Below, one piece after another: positions 39,492-64,000 of a stretch of DNA of 64,000 nucleotides. Every line of letters begins with the position of its first letter. The first letter of the stretch is position 1. Under the pieces are notes generated by a model. That model did no database searches, was not told where the DNA came from, and saw nothing but the letters and a program-made list of their open reading frames with translations. Source of the stretch: Sabellastarte sp. h YS-2021 (taxonomy: Eukaryota; Annelida; Polychaeta; Sabellida; Sabellidae); assembly GCA_964017235.1 (NCBI GenBank), contig OZ024931.1, positions 136,774,033 to 136,838,032 on the forward strand, read 5' to 3'. A program made the position numbers and the translations under genes.

Positions 39492-41607
39492 AAAAATGGC
39501 TCCAGTGCACCCCGACAAAGGCTTTGTGAATTCAGACATCCTCTCAGCAAAGCGTCTGAAGTGCAAGTGTGAGCGAGTATGGCGCAGTAGCAACTCTGCA
39601 ATCAACCGGAGAAGATATCGAGCTGCTGTCAATCGCTACAATTTCCTACTGGAACAATCAAGACGCAGGCACTATTCCACTGTCATTGCTGAAAATAATG
39701 GTAACCCCAAGGCTCTGTGGAACACTTTCAAGAAAGTCTTGCACAAAACCTCAACTATCATCCTACCCGATCATATTAGTCCTACTGATTTAGCTAACAC
39801 TTTCGGTCATTTTTTCAGTGACAAAATTGTGAAAATCAGAGTTGCTTTAGAGTCATCAGTGCCTGTTTCCCTCACAATACCGAAGAGTAATAGCAGTGCC
39901 CTGACCTCTTTTGAGCCTGTATCTGAGGATGACATCCTCAAAATCCTAAGGTCATCCAACACCAAATCATCCGACCTGGACCCAATCCCTACCGCACTAG
40001 TCAAAGAGTGTGCGGACATTTTGGTCACTCCAATCACCAATATTATAAACTATTCACTCAAAGAAGGGAGTTTCCCAAACTGTTTCAAAACAGCATATGT
40101 CACCCCTCTTCTCAAGAAACCAAACTTAGACAGAAATCTCCTAAAAAACTATAGACCGGTATCCAACCTTAGTTTCTTATCCAAACTGATCGAAAAAGTA
40201 GTTGCCAAACAGTTAAATAATTATATCGATAGCGAGGGGCTCTCCAATGTCAACCAATCCGCTTACAGGAGACTCCATTCCACAGAAACAGTGCTGTTGA
40301 AAATCCAGAATGACATTGCTGCTTCGTTGGACTCTGGTAAGGCTGTTGCACTCACACTGCTAGACCTCTCAGCGGCATTCGACACTATCGACCATGACAT
40401 TCTTTTTAATTCCCTAAGAGATTGGTTTGGGGTTGATGGCACTGTGTTGAGGTGGATCAGATCCTATCTCTCAAACCGGAAACAGAAGGTTAAATTAGGA
40501 AATAGCTTTTCAGATGTGTTCTCACTTCCGTATGGTGTGCCTCAGGGTTCTGTCCTGGGCCCCCTCCTTTTTACCCTTTACACAACCCCTCTCAGTAATA
40601 TCATTTCCAATTTCAATGTCACCCACCATCTATATGCTGATGACACCCAAATATATCTAGCATTGGACAATAGGAATTTTGATTCCAGTTTCGCTGAGCT
40701 TACAGAGTGTCTCACATGTATCCAAAACTGGATGGCTGGCGTGAAATTGAAACTCAATCCCGAGAAAACTGAATTTATTATAATAGGTGATAGACAAGCC
40801 AGAGAGTCCCTCATTAATAAATTCCCTACTCAACTTCTCGGAAATTCTATTTCCCCTACTGATACAGTCAAGAACCTGGGTGTAATTTTTGACTCTGGAA
40901 ACACCTTTTCCAACCACATAACTAATATGTGTCGAGCCTGCTACTACCACCTTAAGGACCTAAGACGTATTCGTAAATTCCTCAGTGTGGAAACTGCAGC
41001 CTTGCTTGCAAACTCAATGATCAGTAGTCGACTTGACTACTGCAATTCCCTACTTTATGGCATCAGTAAGTACAATGTTGCTAAACTCCAAAAGATACAA
41101 AATGCCCTTTGTAGAATTGTTTTTAGACTTGATAGAACTAGCCATGTCACTCCTTTTCTTCAAAAACTACACTGGCTTCCTATCACTTACCGTTTATTGT
41201 TTAAGTACAATCTAATTACTTTCAAGGCTATAAATTTCTCTCAACCCATATACCTATCATCCTTGATCAAAACCAGTTGTCTAACACGTGGAAATCGTCT
41301 TTCTCTTTCCTCAGCCTCTCACAAAAAGGCCATCGGTAGGAGAGGTTTTGTAGTGGCTTCCCCCATAGAATGGAACAGACTCCCACAATCAGTACGATCA
41401 CAACAAACAATAACAGGTTTCCGTAGCCAGCTAAAGACCTACTTGTTTAGATTAGCATATCCTCCACCATAGTACATCTCCCTGGCGGGCGCTAACCTTG
41501 GATCATGACCTCGAACGTCCCTCGACTTTCCCTTTTTGATTTCAAGCGCATTAGAGGATGTTGCATCAATTTTGCGCTATATAAATGTTTCTATTCTATT
41601 CTATTCT
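39492..41607 (+). mobile_element. 5'-truncated CR1/L2-like LINE inserted in recombinase gene
   Basis: It begins directly in the endonuclease-RT linker and carries a full RT. A 3' UTR with CAAGCGCATTAGAGGATGTT and TTTTGCGCTATATAAATG follows, and it ends in a (TTCTA)n-type tail. Probable 5-bp target duplication ATGTA. No endonuclease domain is present, as expected for a 5'-truncated copy. The intact frame implies a more recent insertion than the surrounding DIRS element. Confidence 0.9.
39496..41472 (+). CDS. LINE ORF2 fragment: reverse transcriptase (658 codons)
   Basis: This is the only long intact frame in the window. Residues 1-150 are the linker after the missing endonuclease (basic, R-rich). 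The RT core follows with KNYRPVSNLSFLSKLIEKVV, QSAYRRLHSTETVLLKIQND, LDLSAAFDTIDHDIL (motif A Asp), GVPQGSVLGPLLFTLY (motif B) and HLYADDTQIYLAL (motif C YADD). A C-terminal LTRGNRLSLSSASHKKAIGR and WNRLPQSVR block closes it. The signatures place it in the CR1/L2-type group of LINEs. The start ATG at 39,496 is only the first ATG after the truncation point, so a normal translation start is absent. All RT catalytic Asp residues are present. Without the endonuclease it cannot move autonomously. Confidence 0.9.
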   Translation: MAPVHPDKGFVNSDILSAKRLKCKCERVWRSSNSAINRRRYRAAVNRYNFLLEQSRRRHYSTVIAENNGNPKALWNTFKKVLHKTSTIILPDHISPTDLANTFGHFFSDKIVKIRVALESSVPVSLTIPKSNSSALTSFEPVSEDDILKILRSSNTKSSDLDPIPTALVKECADILVTPITNIINYSLKEGSFPNCFKTAYVTPLLKKPNLDRNLLKNYRPVSNLSFLSKLIEKVVAKQLNNYIDSEGLSNVNQSAYRRLHSTETVLLKIQNDIAASLDSGKAVALTLLDLSAAFDTIDHDILFNSLRDWFGVDGTVLRWIRSYLSNRKQKVKLGNSFSDVFSLPYGVPQGSVLGPLLFTLYTTPLSNIISNFNVTHHLYADDTQIYLALDNRNFDSSFAELTECLTCIQNWMAGVKLKLNPEKTEFIIIGDRQARESLINKFPTQLLGNSISPTDTVKNLGVIFDSGNTFSNHITNMCRACYYHLKDLRRIRKFLSVETAALLANSMISSRLDYCNSLLYGISKYNVAKLQKIQNALCRIVFRLDRTSHVTPFLQKLHWLPITYRLLFKYNLITFKAINFSQPIYLSSLIKTSCLTRGNRLSLSSASHKKAIGRRGFVVASPIEWNRLPQSVRSQQTITGFRSQLKTYLFRLAYPPP

Positions 41608-54602: not shown

Positions 54603-57600
54603 AATTATGTCAGCTAGAGAGTGAGCCACGTTATTGTGAACAGATTAAATATTGTGAACAGATTAAATTATTTGATAAAATATTTATTCAGTTTCCGGAT
54701 GTGTGTGTTCTAGTATGCATGTGTGCCCCAGTGGGGAAAAATCCACTTAAAATTAATTATAATTTTGTTTCCATTTTAATATCTTATTATGAATGAAATC
54801 TATAAAGTAATGTTTCTGTATTGGTTATGTAAATGGTACACTTAAAGTCCTCAAATGTGAAGCTATTGTTTAAGGCTGCCATGAACATATTTCCTTGCTT
54901 ACAACCTCTAAACCAATATGATCATTGGTTGTCATAAAAATGACTTTAACCTTAAAGGAAAATGGGCTTTTATCTAATTCAATTCCTGACCTTTACATGG
55001 GTTTTAACTTTGCATTTTTGTTGCAAGTGTGAATCTTATATTGTCTGTGTAAGGTAAAGGATGTGCAACAATTACACAACACTTTTCCCAGTTTTTAGTT
55101 ATATGCAAAACACAGGTTGAAGTACTATTTCCAAATGGGTAACGTTAACCTCTTTATAACAAAAAGGCCGCCCTATAGTGAATAACTTGCTAAGCTCAAG
55201 TAACACCCCTTTCCCAATTTATAATCCCAAAACTACAATACCTATCCTGGAATGTGATATCGCTTACATGCATAGCGTAACAGGCCTTTGAAGTGCCAGG
55301 GCAAGAGATGGGAGGGCGACGGCTTATTGGGACTTAACCCTCCCCCCGCACCCTTAAGCCCCGCCTACAAATACAAAGAGAGCCACCAATCAAAACTTAG
55401 TCATTAGTTGGTTCAATGTTTAATGTTCTATTCATGTATTTTAAACTTACAGTGTCAGAAAATGGGTACTTCACACTTTTATGTATATTTGGACATTAAA
55501 TATGTAAAAGCCAAATTGAAATATTTAACATTGTAAAATCTAAGAAGACAAAAAAGAGAAAACTGTAAAAAAACAGAAAATAGAGCTTTACAATTAAATC
55601 AAGGTACATACCGTTCACTACTTTACCCATGTATACACAAAGAAACACAAAACGGTAAAGCATCTATTTCCGTTTTACTGTTTTACTGTTTTGGAACTGG
55701 TAAAGCCTTAGATACTTATTTATCTCTTGTAGAAAGTCAATATGAAATAGGTAAAGTTCATTTTTGCTGTGTAATATCTTGCAATAAGTGTCAATGAATA
55801 TATGGCCTTTTACTGTTTAATGTGATACCTTTTTACCGTTTTTCCTAGTTTGGCCCAATTTGGCTTTTGCCACGGAGGGGGTGGGGGGTGGGGGGTTGGG
55901 GGCAGCCACGTGCTGATGAGAAGTGATACTTGTGGTTTGCTTCAAATGCCTATGACGTCACTAATGTTAGTGATGTCATAACACATTGTGTATTATATAT
56001 TCCATGAAGATTTTTGTATGAATGAGGAATCTCAGCAATTATTTATCAATTTTCAGTGTAATTTTATCTTGCCATTACTGATGTAAATTGCTGATGAAAA
56101 ATATAAATTATTTTACACAAAGTATGGCAGCAATTCTGCATAGTAATTATGACATACACACTTATAATAAAGGAGTTACAGGACACTTTAAAAACCTTTA
56201 TATCAGTATTTATATTCCTGAGCTCCACAAATTGGCCATTTGCCAAATCAGCCCTTAGCAAATTGGCCCTTGCAAACTCGCCCCCCAGTTAAAAAGAAAA
56301 AATAACATTTAATGCAATAAGAATAATTTTATGGTGCTTAATCTCCATAACAGGGCAGATCCTAAAGCTAACATTTCTTCATAAATAGTACACCAGATAA
56401 GCATGTATCAAGTAAGCATCTCTTAATTCTAACATTAGATATGTTAAATAAATTTAAGCGACACAATAACTAACAGAAGCCAGGTTGTCAGATTGCGATA
56501 TTTGGCCACCAAGATTACACCAGATAATCAAGGAGGAAATTGATGTTTAGATACCACAAGCCAAATTATAGTGAAAATCTATAGGTGGCCTTAAATAAAG
56601 CTGAGAAGTCACATATTGAAAATTAATAGAAACACACAACTGCCCCGGCTGCAGACTTATAGATAAAACAATAAAAGGTTAAAACAAATACCAATTACAA
56701 GATAAACTAAAACATATAAGTTACTTGGGCTTTGGAGGGTGGGAAATCAAATTTAAACACAGCATGACTTTTCCCTCATATTTAAAGTGTGGAACTGCAA
56801 AACATATTTTCTGCTCCACCAGGCATGGGCCAATCAGTGCCCCAGAAACTAGGTCATAATGTCTAGCAAATAAGTTTTGGAGGGAAACCTAGCACTGTAA
56901 TTCACTTAAGCACTGCACAGACTGCTCCACTACTAAACTAGTCCTATCTCCAGGGTGGAGGACTGACAGGCGTAGTGTGCATACATCACCGTTGAAAATC
57001 AATTTATCGAGTGAATACAAGTCAAGATACATAAGTCAGTTTCTCAAGATAGAAAATTTTGTTGATCCTTCTCCTTTTCATTATTAAATAGCACTACTCA
57101 AGTAAATTGCTTCTAAACATTCACTGAAATTAAACAAGGGCCTTGTCACTGCCAATGGCAAAAACATCAAAAGAAGCATAGAAAAATTATGCCTATTATG
57201 CCTAAGAGTTGAGAGCATGTTCTTGACATTCACTTTGTATTTTATTTATCATAGTTCTTATGAATTGTACTGCCTCAATCAATAAATTTTTAGCATATAT
57301 AAACAAGAACAGATGCCTTGTGAAAAGATAAGCCATTTTGTGATTAATTATTATATGGAATCATTAGAATTAAACAAAATAGTGTTTGCTTCTGATTCAC
57401 CTTTCTGGGGATTTATGAATTCATAAATTTCCCTCCCTGCAGGCAATTCAATCTTTGAGCTCAGTAAATATGTAAAACAATTATTAACCTGATCGTTGTT
57501 ATTTGAAAAAGTTGAGTAATTTGATTCTATATATCAGAAAACAGGTTATTCAGCTTAGATGTTCATGTACAGTATTTTTGTAAAATTTCAAACATCAAGG

Positions 57601-57736
57601 TCCATTTTAGCAATTATTGCACCTGAATCCATTTATGCTTGAATATTGTATCAAAAAGCAAAAACAAGAATTTTCAAACTAGATCCAGATCTGGAGTTGT
57701 GATTCTGGACATTGCAGAATAGACAAAATGATTCAG
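54603..57736. other. No gene seen; one strong G-quadruplex motif
   Basis: GGGGGTGGGGGGTGGGGGGT followed by TGGGGG (about 55,876-55,902) fits a four-run G-quadruplex. A GC-rich patch lies at 55,300-55,380. Otherwise AT-rich, with no supportable gene. Confidence 0.5.
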
Positions 57737-57804
57737 TTTATGAGATTTGAACCCATGACCTCAGGATGCACTGGCACGTCCTAACTGGGCCATGCTGATC
57801 ACCA
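57737..57804 (-). other. tRNA-like sequence (left arm)
   Basis: Mirror copy of 63,933-64,000, with a degenerate A box (TGGCCCAGTTAGG) and B box (GGGTTCAAATCTC). The anticodon stem does not pair well, so it is a tRNA-derived repeat head and not a tRNA gene. Confidence 0.5.
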
Positions 57805-58689
57805 ATTATTAGATTTGAATCTTTGATTTCAAAGTTGTGAAAACAGTAGCAGGGTTCAATCCCTGCAAATGCATTCATTCGTTAATAGATACAAGTCAAA
57901 CCATTTAAGATATTAGGATTGTAAAATTGTAATAACCCCTAATAAGGAGCATACAAATGCATAAAACCTATATAATAATAGAAACATATAAAACCTCAAA
58001 AAAGTGGACAAATAAATACCATGAAGTTACCATGTTTGTATGTTAACTTTACCTTAAGGTCATATAAAATTACCTTGACTCTATTCAGAGTCGCTTTCAA
58101 CCTTGCTCCCAATTGTCAAAATTCAGGAATTGGGAACTGAATCTTTTATGTGGGTGTAATTCCACTGGAGCCAACCTGTCAGTATTTTTGGAGGGTCGGG
58201 AGCAATTTTTACACAGTCAGTTAGGGTCAGTTGTAGTTTCCAGGCCTGTTGGGGAGAGTCAGCAAAATATCAAACATGTTTGATATTTCCCCAACCCTCT
58301 CTGACTCTGTTCCCGACCTAGGCTCCACCCCCTGGTAACTGGCTTGTCCTAGTCAATTCACGTTGTCTTATTACTTCCAGGCTTGTCTGTAGTCCTTCCA
58401 GGCTTGTCCTTATATCTTCCAGGCTTGTCCTAACATGAAACAGGCTTGTATTTTGCAACTTAAGTACTTCTCATTTCCAGTCCATTTATAGCATGATGTG
58501 AGGTGAAAATACGACAAAAAATTATGTCAGGAACAACAAAAACCAGTGCAAGTGATCATAATTTTGAAGTTAAGAGATAGTAAAGGTCCATATGTATGCT
58601 TTAATATTTAAGAAATCTTAAAAAGTGGTTTATTTAGTCACATAATAAACAAATTCTCAGCATATTTCACCAGAGCAATTTAAAAAAAG

Positions 58690-58970
58690 TTAAACTATTT
58701 GGATCCAATCAGAAGATATTACTTCTCACTGTAAAAACCCATAAGCAATTTTGGGGAAAAAAAGAGGATCAAGTGACGACCAATCAACAAATCAGAAAAT
58801 TAGGTCAAGGACAGTTGAAAAACTATTTGGATCCTATCACATGATAATTTTTCTCACTGTAAAACCCATAAGCAATTTCTTTAGAAAAGAGGGATCAAGT
58901 TTCTACCAATCAACAAATCTGAAACTAGGTCAATAGTAAATATTTGGATCTCATCACGTGACCTAAACAT
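58690..58970 (-). repeat. Tandem pair of promoter-like upstream modules
   Basis: The block AACTATTTGGATCCAATCA ... ACCCATAAGCAATTTT ... GACCAATCAACAAATC is repeated after about 120 bp with small changes, ending TTTGGATCTCATCACGTGAC. CCAAT and CACGTG motifs are visible. Mirrored at 62,780-63,060. Confidence 0.75.
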
Positions 58971-59190
58971 TCAAATTTAGTTTTTTTTATTTTAATTATA
59001 CATTTCAGTTTTTTACTTTAATATTATATAGGAAATAAAATCAATGTATGTCTGATTCAGATTATGAATGAAAAATCCATTTAAAATACGAAATTTTAAT
59101 TTCAAATGTTATATTCTGTGCAAACAAGCAGAGATAGATGTGCTTCTGACAATCTCTCATGTGACAATGAAAACCTTCTGCTTGTTGCTG

Positions 59191-59199
59191 CCTTTTATA
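59191..59199 (-). promoter_or_regulatory. TATA-box-like motif (left arm, outer)
   Basis: TATAAAAGG on minus within GGAGTATAAAAGGCAGCA. The mirror copy is 62,537-62,545. Confidence 0.4.
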
Positions 59200-59986
59200 C
59201 TCCAATTTCGAGCTTCTGGGAAGGACCCCTTCAAAATTCCGTCCCTCTGAGCAATTTTCCTACACATTTATAGGAAATATTTTCGAGCTTCTGAGAAAGC
59301 ACATTTTTCTGGACGTGAAGGTAAACACACTGTAGTTCTGGTCATGTGATGGGATCCAAATATTTACTAGTAATTTAGTTTTAGATATGTTGGTTGGTCA
59401 ACACTTATCCCTCTTTTTCCCAGAAATTGCTTATGAGTTTTACATTGAAAATAAATATCTTGTGATTGGATCCAAATAATTATACTTTTTAAAATCTCTC
59501 GTGAAGTAGGCTGAAAATTAGATTACTATGTCACCTAATAAAACACTTGTTCAGGTTTCTCATTTATTTACAGCATACATGTGGATCTTTTTCATCTGTA
59601 AACTTCTAAATTATAATTACTTACTGGATATGGACTGCAAATGAGCAGTACTTAAGTTGCAATACTGTGGGGTGAGAAGAATGAAAAAAACAACAAAAAA
59701 TGAGACTGGGAAGATGGACAAGAGAGAATGAGTAGTAAAGAATATGTAGAAACAGAGGACTAGTGTTGAAATTTGGTTGAACAGTGCTGTAGTTTTTTTT
59801 AAAAAAAGTGTGTGCTGACATCAAGCAGAGGTCTCTTGAAAGCAAAACTAACAGGTCTGAAAGAGTTCTGAGAAGAACTAGCTGTGAAGACAATAAAAGT
59901 CGGTTAGAGCTCTTAATCTTCAGAGATCTGTTCATACGTGCGCTGGTATGCTTCTGTGACAATGAAACCTTGTTGCTTGTTTGCTG

Positions 59987-59995
59987 CCTTTTATA
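59987..59995 (-). promoter_or_regulatory. TATA-box-like motif (left arm, inner)
   Basis: TATAAAAGG on minus. The mirror copy is 61,742-61,750. Confidence 0.4.
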
Positions 59996-60594
59996 CTCCA
60001 ATTTCTGCAGTTCTGGTCATGTGATGGGATCCAAATATTTACTGGTGACCTAGTTTTATATTTGTTGATTGGTCGACACTTGATCCTCTTTTTCCCCAAA
60101 AATTGCCTATGGGTTTTCACAGTGAAAAATAACATCTTGTGATTGGATCCAAATAGTTTGTCAACTTTTTAAAAATTGCCCTGGTGAAATATGCCCAGAA
60201 TTTGTTTATTATGTAACAAAATAAACCCCTTTTTAAGGTTTCTCAGTTACGTGAAGCATACACATAGACCTTCACTATCTGTTAACTTCAAAACTATCAT
60301 CACTTGCTATGTTTCTATTTCATTCTTGACATAATTTTTACCTCACATCATGTTTGGAATGGACTGCAAATGAAAAGTTCTTAAGTTGCAAAAGACAGGC
60401 CGGCTTCATGATAGAACAAGCCGGGAAGTGATAAGGACAGGCCTGAAAGGGTAACAGACAGGCCTGGAAGTGATACAGACAAGACATAAAGTGACTAAGA
60501 CAAGCCGGTTACCAAGGGAGCGGAGCCTAGGCCGGGAACAAGAGTCGGGAAGGGTCGGAGAAATATCAAACATATATGATATTTCACCGACTCT

Positions 60595-60612
60595 CATCTC
60601 TCTCTCTCTCCC
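60595..60612 (+). repeat. (TC)n insertion found only in the left arm
   Basis: CATCTCTCTCTCTCTCCC-type tract absent from the mirrored place near 61,140-61,150. It shows that the arms are not perfectly identical. Confidence 0.8.
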
Positions 60613-60858
60613 CGACAGGCCGGGAACTTACAACCGACCCTAACTGACCATGTAAACATTGGTCCCGACCCTCCAAAAATGCTTAGCTACCGGCCTGTCG
60701 GTTCCAGTGGAAACACTGCATTAAAGTTGTTATAATAGACTTATTGTATAGACTTTAAGGTTACCATAAAGGGGAAGTACGCTCCATCCCTTGTGCCATC
60801 CTCATACCAAATATTAGTGAAATTCATCTAGCAGTTTTGGAGTATTTTAATTTATTTT

Positions 60859-60893
60859 GACAATATAAACTCTATAAACCCATTCACAAGTTT
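60859..60893. other. Palindrome spacer
   Basis: 35 bp of non-symmetrical AT-rich sequence (GACAATATAAACTC...) between the arms. Confidence 0.9.
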
Positions 60894-61584
60894 AAAATAA
60901 ATTAAAATACTCCAAAACTGCTAGATGAATTTCACTAATATTTGGTATGAGGATGGCACAAGGGATGGAGCGTACTTCCCCTTTATGGTAACCTTAAACT
61001 CTATACAATAAGTCTATTATAGCAACTTTAATGCAGTGTTTCCACTGGAACCGACAGGCCGGTAGCTAAGCATTTTTGGAGGGTCGGGACCAATGTTTAC
61101 ATGGTCAGTTAGGGTCGGTTGTAAGTTCCCGGCCTGTCGGGGAGAGTCGGTGAAATATCAAACATGTTTGATATTTCTCCGACCCTTCCCGACTCTTGTT
61201 CCCGGCCTAGGCTCCGCTCCCTTGGTAACCGGCTTGTCTTAGTCACTTCACGTCTTGTCTGTATCACTTCCAGGCCTGTCTGTTACCCTTTCGGGCCTGT
61301 CCTTATCACTTCCCGGCTTGTCCTATCATGAAGCCGGCCTGTCTTTTGCAACTTAAGAACTTTTCATTTGCAGTCCATTCCAAACATGATGTGACGTAAA
61401 AATTATGTCAAGAATGAAATAGAAACATAGCAAGTGATGATAGTTTTGAAGTTAACAGATAGTGAAGGTCTATGTGTATGCTTCAAGTAACTGAGAAACC
61501 TTAAAAAGGGGTTTATTTTGTTACATAATAAACAAATTCTGGGCATATTTCACCAGGGCAATTTTTAAAAAGTTGACAAACTAT

Positions 61585-61780
61585 TTGGATCCAATCACAA
61601 GATGTTATTTTTCACTGTGAAAACCCATAGGCAATTTTTGGGGAAAAAGAGGATCAAGTGTCGACCAATCAACAAATATAAAACTAGGTCACCAGTAAAT
61701 ATTTGGATCCCATCACATGACCAGAACTACAGAAATTGGAGTATAAAAGGCAGCAAACAAGCAACAAGGTTTCATTGTCA
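61585..61780 (+). promoter_or_regulatory. Promoter-like module (right arm, inner)
   Basis: In order: GGATCCAATCACAAGATG (CCAAT, about 150 bp before TATA), GACCAATCAACAAAT (CCAAT, about 78 bp before), GGATCCCATCACATGACC, TATAAAAGG at 61,742-61,750 and TTCATTGTCA 29 bp downstream of the TATA start (61,771-61,780). The same order, with similar TATA-to-TTCATTGTCA spacing (28 bp), recurs at 62,261-62,574. This would be a normal core promoter layout, but no convincing coding region follows. Confidence 0.5.
61742..61750 (+). promoter_or_regulatory. TATA-box-like motif (right arm, inner)
   Basis: TATAAAAGG followed by GCAGCAAACAAGCAAC and the TTCATTGTCA motif. Confidence 0.45.
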
Positions 61781-62536
61781 CAGAAGCATACCAGCGCATG
61801 TATGAACAGATCTCTGAAGATTAAGAGCTCTAACCGACTTTTATTGTCTTCACAGCTAGTTCTTCTCAGAACTCTTTCAGACCTGTTAGTTTTGCTTTCA
61901 AGAGACCTCTGCTTGATGTCAGCACACACTTTAAAAAAAAAAACTACAGCACTGTTCAACCAAATTTCAACACTAGTCCTCTGTTTCTACATATTCTTTA
62001 CTAGTCATTCTCTCTTGTCCATCTTCCCAGTCTCATTTTTTGTTGTTTTTTTCATTTTTCTCACCCCACAGTATTGCAACTTAAGTACTGCTCATTTGCA
62101 GTCCATATCCAGTAAGTAATTATAATTTAGAAGTTTACAGATGAAAAAGATCCACATGTATGCTGTAAATAAATGAGAAACCTGAACAAGTGTTTTATTA
62201 GGTGACATAGTAATCTAATTTTCAGCCTACTTCACGAGAGATTTTAAAAAGTATAATTATTTGGATCCAATCACAAGATATTTATTTTCAATGTAAAACT
62301 CATAAGCAATTTCTGGGAAAAAGAGGGATAAGTGTTGACCAACCAACATATCTAAAACTAAATTACTAGTAAATATTTGGATCCCATCACATGACCAGAA
62401 CTACAGTGTGTTTACCTTCACGTCCAGAAAAATGTGCTTTCTCAGAAGCTTGAAAATATTTGCTATAAATGTGTAGGAAAATTGCTTAGAGGGACGGAAT
62501 TTTGAAGGGGTCCTTCCCAGAAGCTCGAAATTGGAG

Positions 62537-62545
62537 TATAAAAGG
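62537..62545 (+). promoter_or_regulatory. TATA-box-like motif (right arm, outer)
   Basis: TATAAAAGG followed by CAGCAACAAGCAGAAGG and TTCATTGTCA at 62,565-62,574. In this copy about 120 bp separate the CATCACATGACC motif from TATA. Confidence 0.45.
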
Positions 62546-63932
62546 CAGCAACAAGCAGAAGGTTTTCATTGTCACATGAGAGATTGTCAGAAGCACATCT
62601 ATCTCTGCTTGTTTGCACAGAATATAACATTTGAAATTAAAATTTCGTATTTTAAATGGATTTTTCATTCACAATCTGAATCAGACATACATTGATTTTA
62701 TTTCCTATATAATATTAAAGTAAAAAACTAAAATGTATAATTAAAATAAAAAAAACTAAATTTGAATGTTTAGGTCACGTGATGAGATCCAAATATTTAC
62801 TATTGACCTAGTTTCAGATTTGTTGATTGGTAGAAACTTGATCCCTCTTTTCTAAAGAAATTGCTTATGGGTTTTACAGTGAGAAAAATTATCATGTGAT
62901 AGGATCCAAATAGTTTTTCAACTGTCCTTGACCTAATTTTCTGATTTGTTGATTGGTCGTCACTTGATCCTCTTTTTTCACCCAAAATTGCTTATGGGTT
63001 TTTATAGTGAGAAGTAATATCTTCTGATTGGATCCAAATAGTTTAACTTTTTTTAAATTGCTCTGGTGAAATATGCTGAGAATTTGTTTATTATGTGACT
63101 AAATAAACCACTTTTTAAGATTTCTTAAATATTAAAGCATACATATGGACCTTTACTATCTCTTAACTTCAAAATTATGATCACTTGCACTGGTTTTTGT
63201 TGTTCCTGACATAATTTTTTGTCGTATTTTCACCTCACATCATGCTATAAATGGACTGGAAATGAGAAGTACTTAAGTTGCAAAATACAAGCCTGTTTCA
63301 TGTTAGGACAAGCCTGGAAGATATAAGGACAAGCCTGGAAGGACTACAGACAAGCCTGGAAGTAATAAGACAACATGAATTGACTAGGACAAGCCTGTTA
63401 CCAGGGGGTGGAGCCTAGGTCAGGAACAGAGTCAGAGAGGGTTGGGGAAATATCAAACATGTTTGATATTTTGCTGACTCTCCCCAACAGGCCTGGAAAC
63501 TACAACTGACCCTAACTGACTGTGTAAAAATTGCTCCCGACCCTCCAAAAATACTGACAGGTTGGCTCCAGTGGAATTACACCCACATAAAAGATTCAGT
63601 TCCCAATTCCTGAATTTTGACAATTGGGAGCAAGGTTGAAAGCGACTCTGAATAGAGTCAAGGTAATTTTATATGACCTTAAGGTAAAGTTAACATACAA
63701 ACATGGTAACTTCATGGTATTTATTTGTCCACTTTTTTGAGGTTTTATATGTTTCTATTATTATATAGGTTTTATGCATTTGTATGCTCCTTATTAGGGG
63801 TTATTACAATTTTACAATCCTAATATCTTAAATGGTTTGACTTGTATCTATTAACGAATGAATGCATTTGCAGGGATTGAACCCTGCTACTGTTTTCACA
63901 ACTTTGAAATCAAAGATTCAAATCTAATAATT

Positions 63933-64000
63933 GGTGATCAGCATGGCCCAGTTAGGACGTGCCAGTGCATCCTGAGGTCATGGGTTCAAATCTCATAAAC
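63933..64000 (+). other. tRNA-like sequence (right arm, at window edge)
   Basis: A-box-like TGGCCCAGTTAGG (63,944-63,956) and B-box-like GGGTTCAAATCTC (63,982-63,994) are about 38 bp apart, followed by AT-rich sequence cut by the window end. The anticodon stem is poor. It is probably the head of a tRNA-derived repeat lying just outside the fold-back element. Confidence 0.5.

Follow-up and report, generated by a model that had tools for sequence, protein, structure and literature searches.

How does a palindrome of more than ten kilobases, whose arms are nearly identical, come to stand in an animal chromosome, and is it a feature of the chromosome or of the assembly? The question is raised by the right-hand end of a 64,000-nucleotide stretch of the polychaete Sabellastarte sp. 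h YS-2021 (GenBank contig OZ024931.1; C5:136774033-136838032), which we call the window throughout. To judge from their sequence, both arms are copies of a DNA transposon that is non-coding and dispersed in the genome, and our best reading, to which we assign a probability of roughly 55%, is that the palindrome is a fold-back or template-switch inverted duplication of one broken copy of this element. The locus is a one-off mobile-element rearrangement, with no gene or expressed unit demonstrated in it.

Anatomy of the palindrome and of the element in its arms

A preliminary description had reported a near-perfect palindrome of at least 6.2 kb that leaves the window, with arms 35 bp apart. Both points are borne out: the in-window arms, 57736-60858 and 60894-64000, give a local alignment of 3079 matches, 28 mismatches and 2 gaps, and are separated by a 35-nt spacer at 60859-60893 (+). 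The right arm is cut by the window end; on a 9,968-base stretch of this chromosome (C5:136836033-136846000; locus L009) it can be followed, as anticipated, to position 66141, 2.1 kb beyond the window. The arm length of about 3.1 kb given earlier holds inside the window, whereas the full arms on the chromosome measure about 5.25 kb: the left arm occupies 55593-60858 on the plus strand (5266 nt) and the right arm, on the minus strand, starts at 60894 and is 5248 nt long, giving a palindrome of 10.5 kb from 55593 to 66141. Over 5248 aligned columns the arms differ by 40 mismatches (0.76%; 24 transitions and 16 transversions) and by 3 gaps of 2, 1 and 15 nt; outside 55593 and 66141 the two flanks are dissimilar to each other. 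An inverted match of more than 5 kb at about 99% lies far outside chance and needs no formal test.

A search of the genome (1.786 Gb, 647 contigs) with the first 2065 nt of the window's part of the left arm returned 234 matches (40 of 5229 candidates scored). Of the matches listed, three reach 99-100%: one is a copy at C5:137008642-137010703 and the others are the arms themselves. The next best listed match stands at 94%, or up to 97% over a shorter stretch. We fetched and mapped 17 other loci (L012-L028, of which L020 and L021 duplicate each other), and many of them start sharply at element position q55597. In the left arm the end sequence, AATCAAGGTACATACCGTT, occupies 55597-55615 (+), and its mirror copy lies beyond the window at 66119-66137. 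This end pattern, allowing up to 2 mismatches, occurs 238 + 250 times genome-wide against 0 for a reversed control, a count that pools left and right ends and of which only the first places were itemised. In eleven of the 17 loci the sequence extends beyond q60898 and reaches a right end after another 289-307 nt. Both outer ends of the palindrome are the element's left end, and the last ~290-307 nt of the element, its right end included, are lacking in both arms.

The arm element looks like a non-autonomous DNA transposon family, because it has no large open reading frame (ORF) and the two longest match no Pfam family. No ORF in 55593-64000 exceeds 127 aa, the length of the longest, and the ORFs of this interval, with a Pfam check of the two longest, yielded no transposase gene sequence; the idea of a coding palindrome was discarded on the same grounds. 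In a check for an autonomous partner, ORFs were read by eye in 15 of the 17 loci (L017 and L021 excluded); a DDE_Tnp_4 transposase ORF lies at L028:6355-7587 beside an element copy, its link to the arm family not being established. When the element ends were paired by script into 14 pairs, some of them alternative pairings, a 6-bp direct duplication was present in three (GTAAAG in L015, CTTGAG in L025 and ACTGAC in L027). CTATAG, noticed by eye, is common to both sides in L020/L021, which are a single duplicated segment; it is offset there by 4 additional nt on the left-end side. The remaining tested pairs, including L012, L014, L019 and L022, show no target duplication. TA, TTAA and 4-bp target duplications were first ideas, abandoned once the 6-bp duplications surfaced in L015, L025 and L027.

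Each arm also contains an older inverted repeat internal to the element (58181-60683; about 80% between 58181-58844 and 60017-60683). The element holds direct sub-repeats, and TATAAAAGG motifs on both arms face away from the palindrome axis. Elsewhere in the genome, two left ends stand back to back and face outward at C6:137605055-137605646 (2 bp apart) and at C2:74410542-74411234. By eye, tRNA-like box motifs (TGGCCCAGTTAGG...GGTTCAAATC) can be made out at 57736-57880, in the outer in-window part of the arm; we take the pattern near 57740-57830 to be perhaps a short interspersed nuclear element, and ARAGORN detected no tRNA genes in the window. Five Rfam matches to microRNA precursors at the axis were rejected, all being below their gathering scores, as any perfect hairpin yields.

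At the centre, native copies of the element read ...TTTATTTTGACAATATAAACTCTATAAACCCATTCACATGTTTAAAATTTTGTACTG... across the junction position. The window stays native through GTTTAAAAT and then switches to the reverse complement of the arm. The junction carries a 5-nt inverted microhomology, AAAAT at 60894-60898 (+), which pairs with ATTTT at 60854-60858; inverted microhomology of at least 5 nt arose in 0.21% of 20,000 random geometries drawn on one native copy (L023). Comparison with native copies assigns the spacer to the left arm only: it is transposon sequence that prolongs this arm, which extends from the left end at 55597 to element position q60858 and runs straight into the spacer. Being contiguous with the loop, the left arm is the template-like one.

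The outer limits are equally well defined. On the left, the flank CAATTA (55591-55596, +) is part of an older repeat, here called U, which natively continues TTTCATTGG; it runs on as TTATTTCATTGG in all four fetched copies (one ACAATTATTTCATTGG, three ACACTTATTTCATTGG). Since these copies natively run on past that point, the element sits after CAATTA. The TTTCATTGG continuation is missing on the right side of the palindrome, where the flank V is part of another repeat that starts at about position 66143 (L009) and is 85-89% identical to most copies among the matches listed. At its right end, before V, the palindrome has the sequence TAATC, and TAAT is the reverse complement of the ATTA with which the left flank closes; the corresponding position in most sampled V copies has AAAAA-like sequence. 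The limit of the palindrome, 4 nt past the element end, is unexpectedly exact. Between U and V, we found no target duplication of 4-9 bp around 55597-66137, and U and V joined gave no contiguous native match, the best extension reaching 2 nt into V. An independent element end abuts the V repeat at C2:46237999, likewise without a matching 6-bp duplication. All eight sampled V copies have an element-end-like segment upstream, each scoring above 50 shuffles, at 69-85 nt from V in six copies, 27 nt in L049 and 12 nt in L051. The V-repeat and element families appear to be placed at one another's ends.

Arm divergence and a later tandem duplication

The arms are mutual closest relatives, at 99.2% against at most 97% elsewhere among the matches listed. 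A recent origin, which the preliminary description had offered as one possibility, fits a divergence of 0.76% when no listed match outside the C5 locus exceeds 97%. Comparison with the other copies places the derived state on the left arm at 17 of the 40 substituted sites and on the right arm at 23; some sites rest on one to four copies, at one the commonest base is tied and at another the copies split 8 to 6. They are unevenly spread: between 56986 and 58314 there is a substitution-free run of 1328 bp (56987-58313), and only 1 in 5000 permutations gave one as long. Some gene conversion between the arms, another of the early suggestions, is therefore likely in at least this candidate tract. 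Because conversion is suggested, the divergence of the arms should be read as a lower bound on their age.

The centre and the right arm have been assembled a second time, 172.7 kb away. From 60766 rightwards, 12,532 alignment columns recur from C5:137007471 at 99.86% (11 mismatches, 4 gap openings). The second copy has only 93 bp of left arm, its breakpoint lying 93 bp left of the spacer, and the 9.47 kb to its left are unlike the palindrome region. The 1000 nt left of that junction recur at 100% at C5:137162908-137163907, where they continue differently. This double recurrence, of the right side from C5:137007471 and of the junction-left sequence at the end of the second unit, identifies a tandem duplication in the assembly. 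Unit 1 is C5:136834798-137007470 (172,673 bp) and unit 2 is 137007471-137163907 (156,437 bp); the joint reads TTTAGATAA-AT-AAAGGGG, with 2 bp of microhomology (AT). Two of five probe pairs placed at a fixed offset match (100% over 400 nt) and three do not; a genome search located two of these three at a shorter offset, each at 100%, one over 61-400 of its 400 nt and the other over all 400. About 17.1 kb in unit 1 is lacking from unit 2, within C5:136884.4k-136904.06k (probes L033 to L035). The right edge of this difference falls in a TA repeat, and the difference could be a large mobile-element insertion or deletion.

The two events can be ordered from their substitutions. The right arm and its tandem copy are 2 substitutions and 3 gaps apart, and the second copy carries 38 of the 40 right-arm states. 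At both remaining sites it has the left-arm state, probably the ancestral one. Read in this way, the shared and ancestral-like states indicate that the palindrome is older than the tandem duplication. The presence of 38 right-arm states in a second place also makes it unlikely that the arm differences are read errors.

Origin of the palindrome

Based on the above, we propose the following sequence of events. A single non-autonomous DNA transposon copy would have stood at U, after CAATTA, until a break or stalled fork stripped it of its last ~300 nt, which left the 3' end (...GTTTAAAAT) exposed. Through pairing of this end with the ATTTT that lies 35 nt upstream of it, or through a comparable template switch, synthesis would then have reversed and copied the element as far as its left end and 4 nt into the flank. 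Joining of this new end to the second, unrelated repeat V would have produced the 10.5-kb palindrome, in which the left end is present twice and the right end is absent. The arms would afterwards have mutated independently, at least one stretch apparently being homogenised by gene conversion, and the palindrome centre would later have acted as a breakpoint of the 156-173 kb tandem duplication. Of this account, the fold-back synthesis, the conversion and a causal role of the centre in that duplication are inferred, while the anatomy, the absence of right ends, the microhomologies and the order of the two events are read from the sequence.

The features that speak for fold-back are the inverted microhomology at the inner junction, a single-copy loop continuous with one arm and the loss of distal sequence. 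Copying of this kind accounts for the inner near-symmetry, the shared ancestry of the arms, the one-arm loop and the inverted ATTA/TAAT. Several observations weigh on the other side. The copying must have halted within 4 nt of the element's left end, and this needs explaining; we can only suggest that the end-like segments upstream of V were involved, through their homology to the element end. Divergence of the V type is not seen in the terminal part of the right arm (the first substitution is at 55876), and the end-like segment lies mostly 69-85 nt from V in the sampled copies as against 5 nt at this locus. Moreover, the 60-nt native strands from the window and from L023 have no folding advantage over shuffled sequences (z 0.61 and 1.16), and the 5-bp stem is not seen in their minimum-energy folds. 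A hairpin at the junction would for these reasons have been only transient.

The main rival to fold-back copying supposes that the element inserted twice in inverted orientation, at U and in V, possibly through local hopping; a central deletion would then have taken out both right ends together with the intervening DNA, and conversion would have homogenised the arms. It would explain without coincidence the exact element ends on the outside, the differing flanks and the lack of a common target duplication, and it draws on a habit of the family, whose elements do adjoin one another's ends and of which another end abuts the V repeat at C2:46237999. Even so, we judge it unlikely, since the central breakpoints in two separate elements would have to fall just 40 nt apart, each insertion would need to be by far the other's nearest relative, and the inverted ATTA/TAAT at the two ends would be left to chance (about 1 in 100 by our estimate).

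We give distinctly less credence to an assembly fold-back, a misjoin or a haplotype joined in reverse, which the preliminary description had also raised. Palindromes are a known weak point of assemblies, and the adjoining 156-173 kb tandem copy, at 99.86% over the 12.5 kb compared, resembles the product of a false duplication. But a 0.76% divergence with derived substitutions on each arm does not favour such an artefact, nor does a centre assembled in two places with 38 of 40 right-arm states in common, and it is these shared variants that place the artefact low. The junctions, furthermore, carry 5-nt and 2-nt microhomology, the 79,968 and 22,000 bases compared contain no N, and a reverse haplotype join should run past the element ends, where the arms in fact stop. 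The least probable of the readings is that the palindrome is a mobile element of foldback type that inserted as a unit. Its two intact, identical left ends with element-terminus sequence would suit such an element; it has no flanking target duplication, though other copies show 6-bp ones, and the 45 left-end matches listed contain no other pair that faces outward within 15 kb.

Elsewhere in the window, at 39496-41472 (+), a 658-aa ORF has a reverse transcriptase domain (RVT_1), which we take to resemble that of a CR1/Jockey-type retrotransposon.

Comparison with known systems

The kinds of event that we propose are already known. FB elements move as palindromic units. Like FB-type transposons, the palindrome has long inverted repeats with sub-repeats; unlike them, it shows no target duplication, and no second palindrome copy appears among the matches listed.

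Closer parallels come from fold-back rearrangements. Human inverted duplications arise through fold-back with 2-8 bp of inverted microhomology (PMC3907307). The median length of hairpin loops is 35.5 nt in MRE11- and SAE2-proficient yeast (PMC7467729). The palindrome has in common with the fold-backs of human copy-number variants (PMC3907307) and of yeast (PMC7467729) a short inverted microhomology, a single-copy loop and loss of sequence beyond the break. Those events, however, are large and often terminal or dicentric, and the human spacers measure kilobases (PMC3907307, PMC7467729), whereas the event here is internal, spans 5.25 kb and has both outer limits at a transposon end.

For the later step, the human Y palindrome P8 provides a counterpart, with tandem duplications of 158 and 191 kb that have 6 and 2 bp of microhomology (PMC6790999). 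Both cases combine a tandem duplication that takes in part of a palindrome with microhomology at the junction. They differ in that the P8 arms, as described there, are about 38 kb long and carry genes (PMC6790999), while the breakpoint here lies 93 bp from the spacer of a transposon-only palindrome.

In structure, the nearest relative is maize Mu killer (Muk), a MuDR derivative described as a partial inverted duplication that has both terminal repeats from one element end (PMC3440606). The locus shares with it, on that account, a partial inverted element with termini from the same end, a missing other end and a centre that is the inversion point (PMC3440606). Unlike Mu killer, its arms show no transposase and its host is an animal; the likeness is one of structure. 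The match raises the question of whether, in animals, a folded-back element can silence the family to which it belongs. That the locus is an animal counterpart, in which read-through would give hairpin RNA and small RNAs that silence the family while the unstable centre seeds duplications, is a speculation by analogy that we regard as highly improbable.

On our preferred reading of fold-back copying, the locus would be a base-resolved germline example of a long palindrome that was made from one transposon copy and then became the breakpoint of a duplication 15 times its size. If the palindrome centre was causal, elements folded back in this way would seed large segmental duplications. Known as the separate kinds of event may be from human, yeast and maize, their combination here is unusually legible, the order of palindrome and duplication being readable from shared substitutions, and it is seldom met this clean.

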